A stretch of 12,657 bases of DNA from positions 1 through 12,657 of the forward strand of contig WJIO01000414.1 of the NCBI GenBank assembly GCA_014730235.1, in the 5' to 3' direction. This DNA is from Candidatus Poribacteria bacterium (GTDB lineage Bacteria > Poribacteria > DTPJ01 > WJIO01). Made by a program: the position numbers and the translations under genes. Shown here one piece after another: positions 751-11,863 of this stretch. Numbering within the stretch: the stretch's first letter is position 1; the number at the start of each line of letters is the position of its first letter. The notes under the pieces were generated by a model. It was not told the origin of the DNA. It saw only the letters and a list, made by a program, of their open reading frames with translations, and made no database searches.

Positions 751-1188
751 TTATCTCCGTCTGAAATAGTAGATGGAAAAATGAGGAATTCTCCAGAATA
801 ATCCCCAATTCCGAATTTCAGGAAATACAAAACCACCATCAGGACTATAAAGGAAAGGATCAATTATGCCATATTTTATTATGGCTTCCCAAGTAATACA
901 AAGAAGAGCTGGTTTTTCAAACACTGTTCCACTGGGGCCAAAACAAATATTTACTGAATCTCGATCTTCATTCAAATACGCCGAAATAACTATTTCTTCT
1001 TTTACATCATCCCCAAATGAATTTGGCAATATGCGCAGGGCCAGACCTTTGCAAATCCGGATTGTTCCACCCTCTTCAGGATCAATAACTTCTGAACCAG
1101 CAAGAGCTGAATTGACCGAAAAAACCATTAAAACAGCTAAAACCAAACTCGCAATTTGAAACTTCTTCCAGAAATTTGTGTTCAACAT
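751..1188 (-). CDS. Small secreted protein with ZU5-like domain
   Basis: The protein has 145 residues and starts with a clear Sec signal peptide: MLNTNFWKKF, then a hydrophobic core at residues 11-28, with probable cleavage after ALA at residue 30. The mature part begins GSEVIDPEEGGTIRI. The pattern GGTI...LALRILPNSF...EEIVISAYL...FGPSGTVFEKPALL (residues 40-96) resembles bacterial ZU5-like beta-sandwich domains found in surface or periplasmic proteins. The tail (120-145) is aromatic and ends in Arg-Arg-Arg. The ATG at 1188 is supported by a strong GGGAGGAG ribosome binding site. The gene lies 34 bp downstream of the TPR gene on the same strand with no terminator between, so it is probably the second gene of the same operon. 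No enzymatic motif is visible. The ZU5 assignment is by pattern only; the secretion call is stronger. Confidence 0.72.
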   Translation of the reverse strand: MLNTNFWKKFQIASLVLAVLMVFSVNSALAGSEVIDPEEGGTIRICKGLALRILPNSFGDDVKEEIVISAYLNEDRDSVNICFGPSGTVFEKPALLCITWEAIIKYGIIDPFLYSPDGGFVFPEIRNWGLFWRIPHFSIYYFRRR

Positions 1189-1222: not shown

Positions 1223-2350
1223 TCATTTATAGTAACTTGTAACCTTCTGAATTTTAGATTCGATCCTACTTACTTCCTCATCAAGCTCAAGATTCTTATA
1301 AGATTCCATCGCTTGCCGGAGATAATCCAAGGCTTTCATCTTGTCACCTCTTTCAAGATTCATCATCCCTTTCTCAAAAAATATCTCCGCCTCAGTTAAG
1401 AGATTATCATACTTCTTACATATATCTAATCCCTTTTCAAATGATTCCTCTGCGGAATTCCAATCTTTCATTTGAGTGTATATCATCCCATATGTTTTAT
1501 GAACTTCCGCTATGCCCATCTTGTTTTCTGTGGATTGAAATATCTTAAAAGCTTTATCACAATAGACTTTAGCAATTGAAGGATCATAAAGGTTTAATGA
1601 AAGCTGAGACCGGTTTATATAGATTATGGATAACAGGTCATTATCTCCAATGTCCATACATAAATCCATGCTTTTTTGATAGCATTCACCGGCTAGTTTC
1701 CATTCTTCTTTTTTTGCATAGGTCATTCCCAGATTATGGTATGTTTGAGCCAAACCATGAGTATCTCCAGCTTTTTTATAACTGTCTATACTTTTCTGGT
1801 AATATTGTATTGTTTCGTCCAGTTTTCCCTGGGAGTTTGATATTATACCCAGATTGCTATGGGTATCTGCCATGAGTATTGCATCGTTATACTCATTGGC
1901 AATATCAAGAGCCTTATAAAAATATCCTTTTGCTTTGGACATCTCACCTTTTTCAAAATGGTTGAAACCCAGGTTATTATATATATTACCGGACTCACTC
2001 AGGTTTCCGGAATTTTCATAGATTTCCAGGCTGGATCGATAAAAATCATAAGCTTCTTTCCATTCACAAAGCTTTGATTTTATATGTCCCATCTGCTTTA
2101 ATGCTTCAGCCTTTGTTTCCTCACTGCTGGTTAATTTAAATGCTCTTTGAAATATTTCAAGAGCTTTGTTCCAATTTCCGGAAACGATACAGGCTTTTCC
2201 TGCCTCGATTAGCAACAGTGATTCATCATCCTGGGATAAATCCACACCAGTAATTTTTCTTAGTGTATCCAAAACCGTATGAAAATATACTTCTGGACTT
2301 TTATGTATAGTATCTGGTAATTGCTTTTCGCTTTCCATAGTTTTACCCAA
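1223..2350 (-). CDS. Cytoplasmic TPR-repeat protein
   Basis: A protein of 371-375 residues made almost wholly of tetratricopeptide repeats with about 40-residue spacing, from about residue 45 to 365. Recognisable repeats include GNWNKALEIFQRAF, CEWKEAYDFYRSSLEIY, GEMSKAKGYFYKALDIA, GKLDETIQYYQKSIDSY, EEWKLAGECYQKSMDL, KDWNSAEESFEKGLDI and GDKMKALDYLRQAMESY. This long-repeat type forms peptide-binding superhelices, as in LGN or Rap-like scaffolds. No signal peptide, membrane segment or catalytic domain is visible, so it is probably a cytoplasmic adaptor. The longest frame starts at a TTG (2350); the ATG at 2338 is more likely, with a weak GGGT ahead of it. It lies downstream of a sigma-54-type promoter and three palindromes bordering the activator gene, suggesting it is the activator's target. 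The partner is unknown. Confidence 0.88.
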   Translation of the reverse strand: MGKTMESEKQLPDTIHKSPEVYFHTVLDTLRKITGVDLSQDDESLLLIEAGKACIVSGNWNKALEIFQRAFKLTSSEETKAEALKQMGHIKSKLCEWKEAYDFYRSSLEIYENSGNLSESGNIYNNLGFNHFEKGEMSKAKGYFYKALDIANEYNDAILMADTHSNLGIISNSQGKLDETIQYYQKSIDSYKKAGDTHGLAQTYHNLGMTYAKKEEWKLAGECYQKSMDLCMDIGDNDLLSIIYINRSQLSLNLYDPSIAKVYCDKAFKIFQSTENKMGIAEVHKTYGMIYTQMKDWNSAEESFEKGLDICKKYDNLLTEAEIFFEKGMMNLERGDKMKALDYLRQAMESYKNLELDEEVSRIESKIQKVTSYYK

Positions 2351-2367
2351 GAAATATAATTAATAAA

Positions 2368-2378
2368 ACCTGGCTCCT
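2368..2378 (-). promoter_or_regulatory. Leader element AGGAGCCAGGT of TPR mRNA
   Basis: On the minus strand this 11-mer would lie at about +12 to +22 of a transcript starting near 2389. It contains AGGAG but is about 24 nt from the TTG and about 36 nt from the ATG, and the in-frame stop TAA near 2362 excludes a longer protein. It is therefore not a normally spaced ribosome binding site. It is the exact complement of ACCTGGCTCCT in the loop of the candidate small RNA (4797-4807). Confidence 0.45.
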
Positions 2379-2399: not shown

Positions 2400-2415
2400 T
2401 GCAAAAAATATTCCA
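2400..2415 (-). promoter_or_regulatory. Sigma-54 (-24/-12) promoter for TPR operon
   Basis: The minus strand reads TGGAATATTTTTTGCA, which keeps the invariant GG and GC with exactly 10 bases between them. The -12 block TTGCA is perfect; the -24 block is TGGAA instead of TGGCA. The predicted start is near 2389, giving a leader of about 39 nt to the TTG or 51 nt to the ATG. The neighbouring sigma-54 activator gene and the palindromes 110-210 bp upstream fit the usual enhancer layout. Confidence 0.65.
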
Positions 2416-2498
2416 AATTCAAAAAAATGTTGATTTCCTATAAAAGCAGTAATATCAACACTTTTTCTTATTTTAATAATAACTGAAAAATCTAAAAC

Positions 2499-2564: not shown

Positions 2565-2594
2565 AACAGGTGTTAGTAAATACTAACACCTGTT
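2565..2594. promoter_or_regulatory. Palindromic activator site 2, extended to a 14-bp inverted repeat
   Basis: The core TGTTAG-TAAATA-CTAACA (2571-2588) is embedded in a longer perfect inverted repeat with arms 2565-2578 and 2581-2594. Its centre is 72 bp from site 1, close to seven helical turns, so both could lie on the same DNA face. In RNA from the minus strand it would form a strong hairpin just after the activator stop codon, though without a clear U-tract. It could therefore also help end or stabilise the activator mRNA. Confidence 0.7.
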
Positions 2595-2608
2595 ATTGAT
2601 TACTAACA
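2591..2608. promoter_or_regulatory. Palindromic activator site 3, overlapping the activator stop codon
   Basis: TGTTAT-TGATTA-CTAACA has one mismatch to sites 1 and 2 and the same 6-bp spacer. Its centre is 20 bp (about two turns) from site 2. It overlaps the last codons and the stop (2593-2595) of the activator gene, and its left arm shares bases with the outer arm of site 2. Confidence 0.55.
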
Positions 2609-4623
2609 CTATTTCTGTATTGATCCAGATCGATATTATGTCTGCTTATTAATTGTGATAACCAGGAACGATTCATACCAGCTTCCCGGGCAGCCTGAGA
2701 TACATTTCCATTATTTTCTGAAAGCAGTTTATTCAGGAACATACACTCAATTTTTTGCTGGATTTTTGCTTTAGCCTCTTTTAATTCTCTATCATTTTTG
2801 GGTGTTGCAATAAAATCATCATCAATATTAATTCCTTCTGATTCGGGTAAAGAATTGCGTATTTCAATGGGAAAAACATCCGGTGTTATTGTGTTTCCCT
2901 CTGTCACTATCATTGCTGTTTCAATTATATGTTTTAATTCCCTTATATTCCCGGGATAGCTGTAATTACAAAGTATTTCATAGGATTTATCATCAATATT
3001 AAAAACATTTTTCCCCAGTTTTTCATTATATAGTGATATAAAGTGATCAATAAGTAGCGGTATGTCTTCCCGTCTTTCAGAAAGGGGTGGTAATTCCAAT
3101 TCAAAAACTTTTAACCGATAATATAAGTCCTGGCGAAATTTTTCATCATTCACCATTTTTTCCAGATTTTGATTTGTTGCAGCTATAACCCTTACATCTA
3201 CCGGGATAATTTTATTTGTTCCAAGGGGTCGAATAACTCTTGCTTCCAGCACTCTAAGGAGTTTAACCTGAAGGCTATAAGGCATATCACCAATCTCATC
3301 CAGAAAAATTGTTCCTCCATCAGCTTCTTCAAAACGACCTATACGCCGGGAGGTTGCTCCTGTAAAAGCACCTTTTTCATGTCCAAAGAGTTCACTTTCC
3401 AGTAGGTTTTCAGGAATTGCACCACAGTTAATAGGTATAAATTTTTTGTTATACCTTAAACTGCTGGAATGTATAGATTGGGCCATTAATTCTTTACCAG
3501 TTCCTGTGTCACCATATATCAGGACAGTAGAGTCAGTAAGGGCAACCTGTTGGGCTTTTGCTATTACCTTTTGAATTCTTCCACTTTTACCTATAATGCA
3601 GTCAAAATCGGTGTTTTTTGCATTCGTCCTTTTATGCTTTACACCTTGATTTTTCAGCAAAGCTTCTGCTTTCTGTAGATCTTGATTTAAGTTCCATTTT
3701 TCAATAGAAACAACCACATTATGAGCCATTGCCTGAAGTATAGCCTTATCTTCTTCAGTAAATTCTCCTTCCTTTTTGTTTATAGCTTCAATTACTCCAA
3801 TAGTTTCACCTTTACTGATCAATGGGGTGCAAAGGACAGATTTTGTTGAATGACCAGTATGTTCATCAAATTCACCATAAAAACGTTCATCGTTTTCAGG
3901 ATTCTTTACTAATGCTGTTTTTCCTTCCCGGAGAACCCAACCTGCAATACCCGTATCACTTGGCAGCTTAAGTCTTTTCAGCTTCTCAGCAACACCTTCT
4001 TCCTCAGAAGCTACGGATGAAAACTGCAATGTTCCCCGCTGGCTATGATTAAATATTATAGAAACACCTTCTACATCAAGAAGCCGTTTGGTTTGTTGAG
4101 CGATAAATTCCAGTAAAGTATCCACGTCACCATGAGAGTTAATGGCCCCCGGAATTTGATATAAAGCTGATAAACGGCTGATTTTGCTTTCCAGTTGACG
4201 ATAACGGTTTAATCTCGTTATAGTGCGTACCCGGGCAAGTAATTCAGAATGATCATAAGGTTTAGATATGAAATCATCTGCTCCTGCCTCTACACCTTTT
4301 AATCTGGAATCTTTATCTTCCAGACACGTAACCATTATAACAGGAATTTCATTTAATAATGAATCTTCTCGAATACGGCGGCATACCTCAAATCCATCAA
4401 TATCAGGAAGCATAACGTCCAGAAGTATTAAATCCGGCGTTATCTCCATTGCCTTTGCCAGGGCTTCCAAACCGCAGGAAGCAATTTTAACATCATATCC
4501 CTTTTCATCAAGTAAGGTTTTTAAAACTTCTCCAATATCCGGTTCATCATCTACCACAAGAATTTTACCTTTATAATCCATAATCCATTGCCTTTGTGGG
4601 TTGATATAATTGCCATTATACAT
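2593..4623 (-). CDS. Sigma-54-dependent activator, REC-GAF-AAA+-Fis
   Basis: A 676-residue NtrC-class enhancer-binding protein. The receiver domain covers about 20-138, with acidic pair D25/D26, phospho-acceptor D69 (ILLDVML), T99 and K121. A GAF-like sensor domain follows at about 152-310. The AAA+ domain at 342-575 has Walker A GDTGTGKE (371-378), the sigma-54-contacting GAFTGA loop (418-423), Walker B FLDEIGD (440-446) and YPGNIRELK (556-564). A Fis-type HTH lies at about 635-668 ([22 protein letters not shown]). Phosphorylation or ligand binding should trigger ATPase-driven opening of sigma-54 promoters. The frame opens at ATG 4623; the ATG at 4581 ([15 protein letters not shown]), preceded by AAAGG, fits the receiver fold better. 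No histidine kinase is in the window, so it is orphan here. Three palindromes at its 3' end are the natural candidate binding sites. Confidence 0.95.
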
Positions 4624-4696
4624 AATACCCGCTGATACTTTAGTCGAATTAATTTATATATTCCGGTTGAGTATATCTCCCCTCTTGGGATAAACT

Positions 4697-4712
4697 TGGC
4701 ATGTAGTTTGCA
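4697..4712 (+). promoter_or_regulatory. Sigma-54 (-24/-12) promoter pointing away from the activator
   Basis: TGGCATGTAGTTTGCA matches TGGCAC-N5-TTGCA at all but one defined position and has the exact GG-N10-GC spacing. It is a better match than the TPR operon promoter. The predicted start is near 4723. It lies 74 bp from the activator's first ATG and fires in the opposite direction, into a region with no protein gene. I found no copy of the TGTTAG-N6-CTAACA palindrome within 200 bp upstream. Confidence 0.6.
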
Positions 4713-4722
4713 AATATATTTG

Positions 4723-4835
4723 GCGTCGCTACTGATAAAAAAAATATCAGTAAGTATTAAGATTTATGTCTGGCACTGAGTTTCAACTAAACTTCGACCT
4801 GGCTCCTCCAAAAAACTCAGTGATGATTTTTGATT
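4723..4835 (+). ncRNA. Candidate sigma-54-driven small RNA
   Basis: Downstream of the -24/-12 element lie two stem-loops. The first, TACTGATA/TATCAGTA (4730-4737 with 4745-4752), has a loop of seven A. The second has a perfect 10-bp stem, CACTGAGTTT (4774-4783) with AAACTCAGTG (4813-4822). Its 29-nt loop contains ACCTGGCTCCTCC, and a T-rich tail (ATGATTTTTGATT) follows that could end transcription. The loop carries the anti-Shine-Dalgarno string CUCCUCC, a feature of many trans-acting small RNAs. Eleven loop bases are exactly complementary to the leader of the TPR mRNA. The ends are estimates from the promoter and the tail. Alternatively, a 23-codon frame from ATG 4766 to TAA 4837 could be a small protein, but no ribosome binding site precedes it. 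Confidence 0.42.
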
Positions 4836-4969
4836 AATTATTTTATTAAATATTAAAAAAGGTATGAGGCGAGTAATACGGTGACAATTTTATAGAGAGA
4901 TGGAAAATTATTAAAATATTTGGTTTTTTCGATTTGAGTGTGGAAATAAGAAAAAATCTCATCTTTTTG

Positions 4970-4995
4970 GTCATTCCTGCAAAAGCAGGAATGAC
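4970..4995. repeat. Palindromic dispersed-repeat unit
   Basis: GTCATTCCTGC-AAAA-GCAGGAATGAC is a perfect 11-bp stem with a 4-nt loop. This sequence type recurs as dispersed intergenic repeats in many bacterial genomes. Its right arm begins the first of two 59-bp direct repeats. It is probably a REP- or MITE-like unit. Hairpin formation in RNA is certain in principle, but the lack of a T-run argues against a simple terminator. Confidence 0.75.
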
Positions 4996-5043
4996 AGGCT
5001 GAGAAAACTTTCAAATATTACCACACTAAACCCGGAAGAACCA
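4985..5043 (+). repeat. 59-bp direct repeat, copy 1
   Basis: It begins GCAGGAATGAC and ends TACCACACTAAACCCGG followed by AAGAACCA. Copy 2 (5571-5629) aligns with it over 59 bp without a gap: the two ends are nearly identical and the middle of about 22 bp diverges. The spacing between copies is 586 bp. Confidence 0.7.
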
Positions 5044-5503
5044 ACTATTTTAAGGGGTAGTCCAGCCTGATACATCCTGCGGTTGGATTTAACCAAAGCA
5101 GGTAAATTTATTTTATAATTGCTCATAAATAACCTGCACTTCGTAATGACCAGAACTGAATTTATGCCAAACTTGTAGCTGGTATTGGTCGTATAAACTG
5201 TGATGGTCAGCAAATTATGTAATACAAGCTGTTAAGGCTTTCATATACTCGGTTGGGCTATATTCTTCCAGATACCCTCCCTACCTCCAGCATTCCCTTA
5301 GGGTTTGAAGGTGAACACATGAAACCCAATCCAATCGAGTATTGAAAGCCTTCCCTCTTTTTAAACACTCCTGGTGTTCCTGCTAAGCCATCCTAATGTC
5401 ACTGATCGGAAGGTTTAGCTGGAGTTTTGCCCTCCTGTTTAATTTCATCAACCTTAAATCTGAAAAGTCTGAATACAAACATAAATTTTGCATCCCCATT
5501 TAG
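5044..5503. other. Non-coding stretch between repeat copies
   Basis: No reading frame on either strand has a convincing ribosome binding site or recognisable protein family. It holds an imperfect inverted repeat: AAGGCTTTCATATACTCG (5234-5251) against CGAGTATTGAAAGCCTT (5336-5352), with arms extendable through CCAA and about 80 bp between them. There is also a short hairpin AACAC-TCCTG-GTGTT (5364-5378). Flanking by direct repeats suggests a decayed or non-autonomous mobile element, but no transposase remnant is recognised. Confidence 0.4.
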
Positions 5504-5582
5504 TTGCGAGGAATGGTGTAACGAAGCAATCTATATATACACTATGTTTCTGAGATCGCCTCGCTCCGCCGCAGGAATGACG
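5504..5582. repeat. REP-like imperfect palindrome
   Basis: The left arm ends in AACGAAGCAATCT (5520-5532) and the right arm starts GAGATCGCCTCGCT (5552-5565). They are partly complementary around an AT-rich centre. The outer ends read TTGCGAGGAATGG and GCAGGAATGAC. Strings of the type GAGAT(T/C)GC(T/C)TCGCT with (A/G)GGAATGAC are typical of dispersed intergenic repeats in AT-rich uncultured bacteria. The right end merges into 59-bp repeat copy 2. Confidence 0.55.
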
Positions 5583-5629
5583 GCATAAAGAAGTTTCTTA
5601 TCTTTACCACACTGAACCCGGAAGAGCCA
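5571..5629 (+). repeat. 59-bp direct repeat, copy 2
   Basis: It begins GCAGGAATGAC and ends TACCACACTGAACCCGG followed by AAGAGCCA, differing from copy 1 by two transitions in the last 25 bp. The middle has diverged. It ends about 36 bp before the -35 element of the lactonase promoter. Confidence 0.7.
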
Positions 5630-5733: not shown

Positions 5734-6621
5734 ATGGAAATGTTATTTTTAACCCTCTTGATTGGTGGAGCTTCAGATATAAAGTTTTCGGATCTGGTTG
5801 CTGGAGAACCGGAAAGAATAGCATCCGAATTGAAATTTACCGAAGGCCCAGTCTGGCATCACGATGGTTATCTACTTTTTAGCGACATTCCAGCCAACAC
5901 CATCTACAAATTGACGCTAGACCACAAGTTGGAAGTTTTTCGTAATCCCAGTGGAAATTCCAATGGTCTGGCCTTAGACAGCAAGGGCAGACTTGTAGCC
6001 TGTGAACATGGCAACAGAAGGGTTTCCCTCACAAAAGCTGATGACGAAGTAATTACTCTTGCAGAAGCTTATAAAGTTAAAAATCTAAACAGTCCAAACG
6101 ATCTGGCCATTAAATCCGATGGTAGTATATATTTCACCGATCCTCCATATGGCGTGCAATCAGATCAACGGGAACTGGATTTTCAGGGTGTATACAAAAT
6201 ATCACCTGAAGGTAAAATATCCCTTTTATTGGATGATTTTGAAAAACCCAATGGTCTGGTATTTTCGCCTGATGAAAAGGTTCTATATATAGCTGATACA
6301 GCAAGAAAACACGTCAAAGCCTTTGACGTGAAGCCCGATGGTTCTCTTACCAATATGCGTATCTTTGTCGATTCAGTTGTAGAAGACAATCACGGCCCTG
6401 ATGGTATGAAAGTGGATGAAAATGGAAATCTGTATGTCGCTGCCGGAGTTACATGGATTTTCGACAGTTCAGGTAACCATATAGGGAGCATTAAAACCCC
6501 TGAAGCGCCGGCAAATTGCGCCTTTGGCGGGCCGGATAATAAAACCTTTTTCATAACCGCCCGGACTTCCGTTTATAAAATTCCAATGAAAGTTAGCGGT
6601 GCAAAGGCAATAAAGAATTGA
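5734..6621 (+). CDS. SMP-30/gluconolactonase family protein
   Basis: A 295-residue six-bladed beta-propeller of the SMP-30/gluconolactonase/LRE family, close to the usual length. The metal and active-site positions are present: E37 in FTEGPVW, N122 in NSPNDL, N173 in KPNGL and D223 in GPDGM; YFTDPPYG is also typical. Family members hydrolyse sugar lactones such as gluconolactone using a divalent cation. The short hydrophobic start (MLFLTLLIGG) lacks the basic residues of a normal signal peptide, so a periplasmic location is uncertain. The start is supported by AGGAAGG six bases upstream and a near-consensus promoter. The glycosidase-like gene follows after 54 bp with no terminator, so the two are probably co-transcribed, consistent with a role in carbohydrate breakdown. 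The natural substrate is not determinable. Confidence 0.9.
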   Translation: MEMLFLTLLIGGASDIKFSDLVAGEPERIASELKFTEGPVWHHDGYLLFSDIPANTIYKLTLDHKLEVFRNPSGNSNGLALDSKGRLVACEHGNRRVSLTKADDEVITLAEAYKVKNLNSPNDLAIKSDGSIYFTDPPYGVQSDQRELDFQGVYKISPEGKISLLLDDFEKPNGLVFSPDEKVLYIADTARKHVKAFDVKPDGSLTNMRIFVDSVVEDNHGPDGMKVDENGNLYVAAGVTWIFDSSGNHIGSIKTPEAPANCAFGGPDNKTFFITARTSVYKIPMKVSGAKAIKN

Positions 6622-8320: not shown

Positions 8321-11300
8321 ATGCCTCATGAACTTAATTCTTCTTTTAAAACCCGGAGATTAACCAGATATAAACCTGATCACAGGATAGTAAACTGCGA
8401 GAAGATATATATTGGTGATGTTGACTGTGATGGTCAACAAGAGATCGTTATACCAAAAAACTGCTCTTCAAATGGTAAAGAAACAGGTGAAATCGTTGTC
8501 TATGATATGGAACTGAACCAGAAAGCGAAGGATAGCTGGAAAGGTTCAGCTATGGACGTTGTAGTTAAAGACATAGATGACGATGGAATTGATGAAATCA
8601 TAGTGGCGGGAAGTATAGAAAATTCATACCCTTTCATCAGGACATTTAAATATAATACAAATTACAGGGATAACCTGACCCTAATATCGCAAATTGCATG
8701 GAAAGCTCCTGAAAAATTATACAGCACAGCTAAAGCCTTATGCGTTTCAGATTTGGATGGCGATGGAAAAGCTGAGATTTCGGTCCTTTCAATCACAGAG
8801 GGTAAGGGAAGTGAAAACGGCTATATCCAGTTGAGAATATATGATCACCAGATAAATCTCAGGAAAATAGCAAAATGGACTCCCATGACCGGAAGTATAG
8901 TCAAATGGGGCCATTGTATGACAACAGCAGATATTGATGGTGATGGCTGTGATGAGTTAATTACCCTTGTAAATTTCCGTCATCAGGGAAAGCAAAAATC
9001 CGATATAAGGGTTTTTAGTCCTGACCTTATGATTAAAAATAAATGTGATGCAATAAAAGATGAGGCCATGTTTGCCACCTGTATGCTGTCTGGTGATATT
9101 TACAACGATGGTAAAATCAAACTGGTAGTTGCAGGAGGTGTATTTTCTCAGGTCTGGCAGGGGGCAACAAACCAGTTAATGATACTGGATGAAAAACTGG
9201 AAATCACATCAAAGACAACATGGAAAACCTTCAGACATTCCTGGGTCTGGGATATTCAGCTTGCTGATCTGGATAATAATGACAAAAAAAAGATTATTAC
9301 CTATGGTGGCGTATCCACAGCAGGACGTAACCAGGAAGACTCCTATATAATGGGAGAAATTCGCATCTGGAATAATGCCGATTTAAGTACAAGGGATATG
9401 TATATATGGCAAAGTAGTCCCGGAGTGGATACAAGGCCATCTCGCGGTTTTGCCTTTAATCACCATGAAAAGCCAATTTTCATAACGGCTACATCCAGGT
9501 GGCGGCGTCATGAAAACCCGGATGAACTGGAAATCCGGATAATGGATTACAATTACAAACCAAATGCTATAAATCACTATTCCAGCTTGATAAAGGCTTA
9601 TGAAGATAGTAATGCGAATACTTTAGCATCCCTTGCTTTACCGGAAAATGAAGATTTTACCCCTTTAGCTGTAGAAGCTTTATGGGTTAGATGTGCTGAT
9701 GAAACCCCTGAAATTATTAATCAGCTTCTTACAACAAAAAACAAACCTTTATTCCGGCGTGTTGTAGGCGTTTTAAAATTTCTTGGCGATAAAGGCAAAG
9801 AAGAACTACGGAAAATTGGCTTTATAATGCCCGAACTGCTAGCCATTGCAAGCCCTTTTGATAACAACCAAAAATGTGGTTTTGAAAAGAAGTATCCCCC
9901 GGAAACGGGAATTGACCTTCAGGCCTATTACGCCGGTAAAGGGCGAATAGTCCGATGGAGCAAGCTGGATTATTACAAATATGATCCATATATCGATCTG
10001 GCGTATGCCCATTTCGACAGCTTTGAGAGAACAGGCATAGAATACTTCTGGAACGAAAAGAAAACTGAATCAACTGCGTATCTATTAACACACATAGAGG
10101 CATCATCTGATTGTAAAATTCAGATCAGGCTGGGAAGTTCAGATCCTGTAAAGATGTGGGTGGATAATGATTTAAAACTCAGCAGTGATAAGGTATCGAA
10201 GGCCAAACCTGATCAGCATACTTCAGAGATGGATTTGTCCAAAGGCAGCCATAATATGATGTTAAAGGTAGCCAATATAAACAACGGTGAATGGGGTATA
10301 TATCTCAGGATCACAGATAATGAGGGCAAACCCATTTCGGATATTAATTATGCACTTCCGGAAGTTGAATATAAACACAATCAGGTTATAGCCGTTAAAG
10401 AGCTTTTAAAGCTTGTGGATTCTACAGATGAAAATTTGCAATTTATGGCAGCAAGCCAGTTGGCATGTTCTCAAGACAGGCGGGGTAATGAGGTTTTATA
10501 TCATCTTCTGGATTCAGAAGATGATATAATAAGATTCAAAGCTGCTCTTGCCCTTACAAGAGCAGACGATCCAGAAGGTGTTGAAACTCTGGTTGAGACA
10601 ACTCCAAACCAGGATCATCTTTTGCAACTGGCAGCCGGCCATGCGCTAAAACGACTTGGTGATCCCCGAGGGGAACAATTTTACCCGGACAACCTGAAAG
10701 ACAAAAACGATAGAAAAGTAGTGGAACTTGATGTTGATAAAAGAGGTAAAGACTACAGAGTAAGTCCAAAATATAAAGGAGATGAAACATCCCATGTTCA
10801 GGTAGGTGTTAATAGGGATTTCCATCTTGGCAATAACATATCTGCAAAAAGTTCCACCATCGAAAGCTTTGGGATACGTAAGCCCATATACAGGGCAATG
10901 GGTCTGGGCAGCATGGCCATATCAAAAGCCTGTGAGATCATGGCTGAACAGGGATACTCATGTTCAACAGTCAGCACAGGTACCCGACTGGTAGCCCACA
11001 GGTTATACTGCCGAAATGGTTATGTTGACCGGCGTTCTCCCTGGCATTACGGTAGAAGCCTGAAGGATGAACTGTCCATAAAGGGTGACGAAAAGATTAA
11101 TGTCCGGGAATACACAGAAGCTGATAAATCCGAAATAGACAGGTTAAGAGAAGACTATAGTCAAAACACTGTAGGTCCTAATGAATGGTCACCCCGGAGT
11201 AATTATGGAAGCTGGATAAGGGTTGCGGAAGAGGAGGATAAAATAATAGGATATACTGATGTCCATTTGGATCCTTTTGAACCTAAAGCAGAAATAAATC

Positions 11301-11863
11301 TGATCCACATAGACCCGGATTATAAGGACGAAAATAAAGCTGTAAAAAGCATATTAGCTCATATCCATGATTATGTAAAAAATGAAGGAAAAGAACAGAT
11401 TAATTATCATGATCCAACTATGGGTTATAGAGAAACAATATTGAGCGCGGGTTATATGGTTGATCCAAGCTGCAAAAGATACGGATGGGTTAATATGTTC
11501 AAGGTAATTAACCTGCCAAAGTTTCTGGAAGAGATTTCAGACTTGCTGGAAATGCGTCTGAAGAAAAGCATTAACGCCGGATGGCAGGGAAGCATAGGAA
11601 TAAGCGGTTCTCGGCTTAAATCTACGCTGGAGATTGATAAAGATTGTAACATAAATGTGAAAAACGATAACGTGGAAAAAGCCGACCTTGTTATCGTTGC
11701 AGATGATAAAACAATAACAAACCTGGTCTGCTGTAATGAGGACATTTGGGAATCCTACAGACAGCATACTTTTACAGTTAAACCCGTATTTAACGAAAGA
11801 ATCAGATTACTTATAGAGAGCTTGTTCCCGCTTTTGCCCTGGAAACAGGGCGGATGGTGGTAA
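8321..11863 (+). CDS. FG-GAP / PA14-like / HEAT / Eis-like acetyltransferase fusion
   Basis: A 1180-residue protein with no signal peptide or membrane segment. Residues 25-410 contain FG-GAP/VCBS-type propeller repeats with calcium-loop motifs: GDVDCDGQQEIV (32), KDIDDDGIDEII (83), SDLDGDGKAEIS (143) and ADIDGDGCDELI (203), plus weaker ones near 258 and 315. Residues 420-510 are helical. Residues 530-675 resemble a PA14-like jelly roll (LGSSDPVKMWVDND, LSKGSHNMMLKV, WGIYLRI). HEAT repeats follow at 685-785. The C-terminus resembles Eis-type acetyltransferases: a GNAT half-domain (825-905, RKPIYRAMGLGSMAISKA), a second GNAT-like domain (925-1065) and an SCP2-like domain (1072-1180, ADLVIVADD and ESLFPLLPW). 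The first GNAT seems to lack its N-terminal strands. Acetyl-CoA-dependent acetylation is possible; the target is unknown. The frame is intact throughout. Confidence 0.8.
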   Translation: MPHELNSSFKTRRLTRYKPDHRIVNCEKIYIGDVDCDGQQEIVIPKNCSSNGKETGEIVVYDMELNQKAKDSWKGSAMDVVVKDIDDDGIDEIIVAGSIENSYPFIRTFKYNTNYRDNLTLISQIAWKAPEKLYSTAKALCVSDLDGDGKAEISVLSITEGKGSENGYIQLRIYDHQINLRKIAKWTPMTGSIVKWGHCMTTADIDGDGCDELITLVNFRHQGKQKSDIRVFSPDLMIKNKCDAIKDEAMFATCMLSGDIYNDGKIKLVVAGGVFSQVWQGATNQLMILDEKLEITSKTTWKTFRHSWVWDIQLADLDNNDKKKIITYGGVSTAGRNQEDSYIMGEIRIWNNADLSTRDMYIWQSSPGVDTRPSRGFAFNHHEKPIFITATSRWRRHENPDELEIRIMDYNYKPNAINHYSSLIKAYEDSNANTLASLALPENEDFTPLAVEALWVRCADETPEIINQLLTTKNKPLFRRVVGVLKFLGDKGKEELRKIGFIMPELLAIASPFDNNQKCGFEKKYPPETGIDLQAYYAGKGRIVRWSKLDYYKYDPYIDLAYAHFDSFERTGIEYFWNEKKTESTAYLLTHIEASSDCKIQIRLGSSDPVKMWVDNDLKLSSDKVSKAKPDQHTSEMDLSKGSHNMMLKVANINNGEWGIYLRITDNEGKPISDINYALPEVEYKHNQVIAVKELLKLVDSTDENLQFMAASQLACSQDRRGNEVLYHLLDSEDDIIRFKAALALTRADDPEGVETLVETTPNQDHLLQLAAGHALKRLGDPRGEQFYPDNLKDKNDRKVVELDVDKRGKDYRVSPKYKGDETSHVQVGVNRDFHLGNNISAKSSTIESFGIRKPIYRAMGLGSMAISKACEIMAEQGYSCSTVSTGTRLVAHRLYCRNGYVDRRSPWHYGRSLKDELSIKGDEKINVREYTEADKSEIDRLREDYSQNTVGPNEWSPRSNYGSWIRVAEEEDKIIGYTDVHLDPFEPKAEINLIHIDPDYKDENKAVKSILAHIHDYVKNEGKEQINYHDPTMGYRETILSAGYMVDPSCKRYGWVNMFKVINLPKFLEEISDLLEMRLKKSINAGWQGSIGISGSRLKSTLEIDKDCNINVKNDNVEKADLVIVADDKTITNLVCCNEDIWESYRQHTFTVKPVFNERIRLLIESLFPLLPWKQGGWW

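Follow-up and report, generated by a model that had tools for sequence, protein, structure and literature searches.

Genes and features of the locus

The stretch of DNA analysed here, 12,657 nt long and hereafter called the window (G000:C361:1-12657), belongs to a genome of 5.5 Mb in 451 contigs. It carries the gene of a sigma-54 activator, a gene for a TPR protein on the same strand, and a candidate small RNA which would be transcribed divergently from the activator gene. The relevant features are:

1223-2350, minus strand: TPR protein gene, the proposed target (Pfam TPR families; start TTG at 2350 or ATG at 2338)
2335-2373, minus strand: predicted hairpin in the TPR leader, CCAGGUUUUAUU / GGUAAAACU-A-UGG (z 0.28, no stabler than shuffled sequences)
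2367-2378, minus strand: TPR leader site, AGGAGCCAGGU(U), containing the only AGGAG of the leader
2400-2416, minus strand: sigma-54 promoter of the TPR gene, TTGGAATATTTTTTGCA (start expected at about 2389)
2499-2608, no strand: three TGTTAG-N6-CTAACA dyads, probable activator sites, before the TPR promoter
2593-4623, minus strand: sigma-54 activator with receiver, GAF, AAA+ and HTH domains (Pfam; GAFTGA in the translation)
4696-4712, plus strand: putative sigma-54 promoter of the RNA, TTGGCATGTAGTTTGCA (start expected at about 4723)
4723-4838, plus strand: candidate small RNA of about 110 nt with two predicted hairpins (3' end inferred)
4728-4755, plus strand: 5' hairpin of the RNA (predicted in both the MFE and the centroid structure)
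4774-4822, plus strand: predicted main hairpin of the RNA, CACUGAGUUU / AAACUCAGUG (10-bp stem, 29-nt loop at 4784-4812)
4796-4807, plus strand: loop bases complementary to the leader of the TPR gene (11 Watson-Crick pairs and one G-U)

A gene for a small secreted-looking protein (751-1188, minus strand) lies behind the TPR gene. In another part of the window, 8321-11863 encodes a protein of 1180 amino acids with an unusual mix of FG-GAP, HEAT and GNAT acetyltransferase matches.

The activator and its probable target

The predicted activator has the PF00158 and PF00072 domains and the GAFTGA motif of the NtrC family, its HTH having been recognised from the alignment with paralogs only. The three dyads, which are themselves inferred binding sites, lie between the region of the activator's stop codon and the sigma-54 promoter of the TPR gene, and when one mismatch was allowed only one further copy was found in the genome. 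Such near-unique dyads directly before the TPR promoter support the TPR gene as the likely target of the activator. Similar dyads (TGTTG...CAACA) are found just past the activator gene of a paralog in the same genome (C190, L070 5500-5538). In a genome of another family of the same order (G001:C267, L071 3190-3600), CCAACA/TGTTG repeats lie downstream of a 50 % activator homolog, and in the same region a sigma-54 promoter (L071:3578) precedes the gene of a secreted protein; no sigma-54 promoter was found upstream of this homolog.

The candidate small RNA

The putative promoter at 4696, with GG and GC 10 nt apart as -24 and -12 elements, was the joint best sigma-54 match in 1.47 Mb of the organism's own genome, with a score of 0.99 on our own consensus-based measure. 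Several of the other top sites lie shortly before an ORF of at least 90 amino acids, and some are seemingly inside coding sequence. The promoter at 4696 is located directly before the RNA, no ORF of at least 90 amino acids starts within 700 nt after it, and the plus strand has no long gene between 4624 and 5733. The fold of the RNA has a z of -1.8, and a run of T (4827-4831) follows the second hairpin, after which no canonical terminator was found. A search of Rfam 15 with the RNA gave nothing near the gathering score. On these sequence features a small RNA is credible, probably transcribed from about 4723 and ending close to 4838.

Alternatively, the transcript could be the leader of a longer message, such as that of the gene at 5734, or the mRNA of a 23-residue peptide (4766-4837), in which case the loop would have no target in trans. 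Both the missing terminator and the 23-codon frame, which is open through the hairpin, fit this explanation, but the next plus-strand gene (5734) is about 1 kb downstream, past two MITE-like repeats, and the short frame has no SD and is present as a single copy in the genome, making the alternative quite unlikely. The MITE-like copies are at 4911-5053 and 5570-5629, the latter partial, and have dozens of relatives genome-wide. A long imperfect inverted repeat (AAGGCTTTCATATACTCGGTTGG ... CCAATCGAGTATTGAAAGCCTT) is present at 5232-5354; the region 5220-5400 folds with -44 kcal/mol on the plus strand and -54 kcal/mol on the minus strand and has no Rfam match.

The leader of the TPR gene

The sigma-54 promoter of the TPR gene scored 0.93 and ranked 12th in the 1.47 Mb. 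Its -12 element at 2401 places the transcription start at about 2389, and the leader site consequently at about +12 to +22, in agreement with the position proposed in the initial annotation. AGGAG (2378-2374) is the sole SD-like element of the leader, 23 nt from the TTG at 2350 and 35 nt from the ATG at 2338. The 3' end of the 16S gene, with the anti-SD, is cut off by a contig end.

The spacing had led the initial annotation to discount the site as a ribosome binding site. In linear sequence the distances are 23 and 35 nt, but the predicted hairpin at 2373-2335, which directly follows AGGAG and reaches as far as the AUG, would bring the two together. Such shortened spacing makes direct occlusion of translation possible, if the modelled hairpin, which is of ordinary stability, forms. 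Comparable split sites are found in T4 genes 38 and 25, in which an SD 22 or 27 nt from the AUG is drawn near by an intervening hairpin (PMC3014915). The TPR leader would be similar if the predicted hairpin between its distant SD and the AUG forms; it differs in that this hairpin is no stabler than shuffled sequences, and in that its stem includes part of the start codon.

Complementarity between the RNA loop and the TPR leader

The 11-mer ACCTGGCTCCT is found on the plus strand at 4797-4807 and, in an identical copy, at 2368-2378, so that an RNA from the plus strand is complementary to the minus-strand TPR leader, where the counterpart reads AGGAGCCAGGT (2378-2368). The exact 11-nt complementarity described in the initial annotation is thus present as stated. 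An additional wobble pair, G4796-U2367, extends the duplex to 12 bp (11 Watson-Crick and one G-U), with -23.8 kcal/mol.

The predicted cost of opening was about 3.3 kcal/mol for the leader site and about 1.2 kcal/mol for the RNA loop, and the predicted dimer of the RNA and the leader, which uses this same site, gains -19.9 kcal/mol. The loop bases of the RNA are predicted to be open. Within the leader site, the AGGAG half is likewise mostly open, but for the CCAGGU half the prediction is a paired state, with an unpaired probability of 0.01-0.22. We infer that the RNA may pair with the leader in the cell.

Chance and the placement of the match

A shuffled sequence as long as the window is expected to contain about one GC-rich 11-nt direct repeat (at least 7 G/C), so the repeat by itself is unremarkable. 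The rarity is one of placement: one copy lies in the loop of a hairpin and the other in the leader of a gene. Among dinucleotide-shuffled loops, 68 of 20,000 (0.3 %) had an 11-nt match to the leader, as did 104 of 20,000 shuffles of the whole RNA (0.5 %), and the pairing energy was equalled by 2 of 3000 shuffled loops. When 960 leaders of the same genome were ranked with the cost of opening the leader included, the TPR leader was first, at -20.5 kcal/mol; the ranking was made on 1.46 Mb, or roughly one quarter of the genome, with simple ORF starts. In a look-elsewhere control on 1.46 Mb of the genome, non-coding hairpins with 7-bp stems and loops of 11-40 nt were compared with leaders within 6 kb, N excluded. 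The control comprised 1,325 hairpins and 7,345 loop-leader pairs, and the sole other match with at least 5 G/C among these hairpins corresponds in sequence, as judged by eye, to the abundant MITE-like repeat.

In the 5.5-Mb genome the 11-mer is confined to its two sites, both within the window. The 10-mer CCTGGCTCCT has 10 genome copies, approximately the number expected at random, and the eleventh base is present only in the two copies of the window. An origin of the 11-mer in a repeat family was considered and rejected, the other eight 10-mer sites having unrelated flanks.

A chance origin of the match is unlikely, and the earlier judgement that it was improbable is borne out by the shuffled loops and by the rank among leaders. 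The complementarity to the leader is better than chance would be expected to give, as should be the case for a trans-acting base-pairing sRNA. The TPR mRNA need not be the target, however: the RNA could be a genuine sigma-54 sRNA acting on other mRNAs, with the TPR match arising by chance, aided by the SD-like AGGAG, which is common to many leaders and would match any CUCCU loop. The next-best leaders, at -18.8, -18.7 and -18.0 kcal/mol, are nearly equal in energy and several carry AGGAG at normal spacing, the TPR leader was only 8th of 633 by duplex energy alone, about one repeat of this kind is expected in any such window, and the RNA promoter has no dyad nearby. Against this, the TPR leader is the best of the 960 once accessibility is counted, the pairing extends past the SD, and the 11-mer has no other genomic site. 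On this evidence, other targets are a possibility to be taken seriously, though a doubtful one.

Search for relatives

No ortholog of the RNA or of the TPR gene was found among the relatives searched at the protein, DNA and covariance-model levels, and the ortholog searches recovered only activator paralogs from the same genome. No comparable divergent sigma-54 RNA was found beside these paralogs. When 23 related genomes were searched with a covariance model built for the RNA, the sole match was marginal (G013, E 0.04) and was taken as chance, and a scan of the genome contigs gave one match, which was unrelated.

Proposed mechanism and comparison with known systems

The preferred reading, to which we assign a probability of about 45 %, is that a Qrr-like sigma-54 sRNA occludes the AGGAG of the TPR leader and lowers translation of the TPR gene. 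A sigma-54-dependent sRNA of about 110 nt would be transcribed divergently from the activator gene, and its 29-nt loop would base-pair with the TPR mRNA at about +12 to +23, over a length of 12 bp. Such pairing would mask the sole AGGAG and open the hairpin that otherwise places it beside the AUG, and with AGGAG covered and the hairpin opened, translation of the TPR protein would be expected to fall, perhaps together with that of the secreted-protein gene behind it.

The opposite effect may also be considered, since part of the start codon is predicted to be paired as long as the leader is free. The RNA might pair with the leader and raise TPR expression, either by opening the start-codon hairpin or by shielding the 5' end of the mRNA. 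In the predicted structure of the leader alone, two of the AUG's three bases are paired, which speaks for activation. On the other hand, the start codon is not clearly released in the prediction when the leader site is freed, and the AGGAG itself would be covered. Activation appears very unlikely. If the RNA acts, we infer repression over activation at roughly 70:30.

The initial annotation suggested that the divergent RNA of the activator controls the activator's target operon. A putative sigma-54 RNA divergent from the activator gene, the match of its loop to the leader and the TPR gene as probable target of the activator all agree with this, whereas a common activator for the RNA and the TPR gene is not supported: no dyad was found near the RNA promoter at 4696 even with three mismatches, the nearest, those at 2499-2608, being about 2.1 kb away. 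The RNA may therefore answer to another activator, or to the dyads about 2.1 kb away. A broader but unlikely reading takes the locus as a lineage-specific sigma-54 unit: the target operon would lie on one side of the activator gene and a divergent sigma-54 sRNA on the other, the loop of this sRNA would recognise the operon's leader at a ribosome binding site bridged by a hairpin, and activator and RNA would form a local feed-forward circuit.

The arrangement resembles that of Vibrio qrr1, located 151 bp upstream of luxO, oppositely oriented and preceded by predicted LuxO and sigma-54 sites (PMC8043402). As in Qrr1-LuxO, a strong sigma-54 promoter precedes a putative sRNA just upstream of, and opposite to, the gene of a sigma-54 regulator, and pairing with an mRNA is expected (PMC8043402). 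Unlike Qrr1, the RNA described here matches no Rfam family and no activator site is found before its promoter, and the proposed target is the activator's neighbouring operon. The activator differs from LuxO in having an extra GAF domain and in scoring 310 bits against NF041946 (NCBIfam), for which the cut-off is 800.

The rhizobial sRNAs NfeR1 and alpha-r14 carry anti-SD seeds in loops and act on ntrB (PMC10746234). Unpaired anti-SD bases directed at an SD and a link to an NtrC-type system are shared with the candidate RNA (PMC10746234), but the rhizobial sRNAs have three CCUCCUCCC motifs, whereas here there is one loop, a sigma-54 promoter, and pairing that is specific past the SD. Membership of the Qrr or NfeR1 groups is not claimed. 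CJnc230 (FlmE) of Campylobacter jejuni is an RpoN-dependent sRNA, and the gene whose translation it inhibits belongs to the same regulatory cascade (PMC11187230). Dependence on RpoN/sigma-54 and inhibition of translation within one regulatory cascade are likewise proposed here; CJnc230 is, however, processed from the flgE mRNA, whereas the candidate RNA appears to have its own promoter.

If the preferred reading is correct, the locus would contain a sigma-54 sRNA in a lineage without a close relative among the genomes searched. Its layout would be similar to that of Qrr1-LuxO, except that the target would be the operon next to the regulator gene itself. The pairing site would be specific enough for a simple reporter test in E. 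coli, and the locus could exemplify control by an sRNA at a ribosome binding site bridged by a hairpin.
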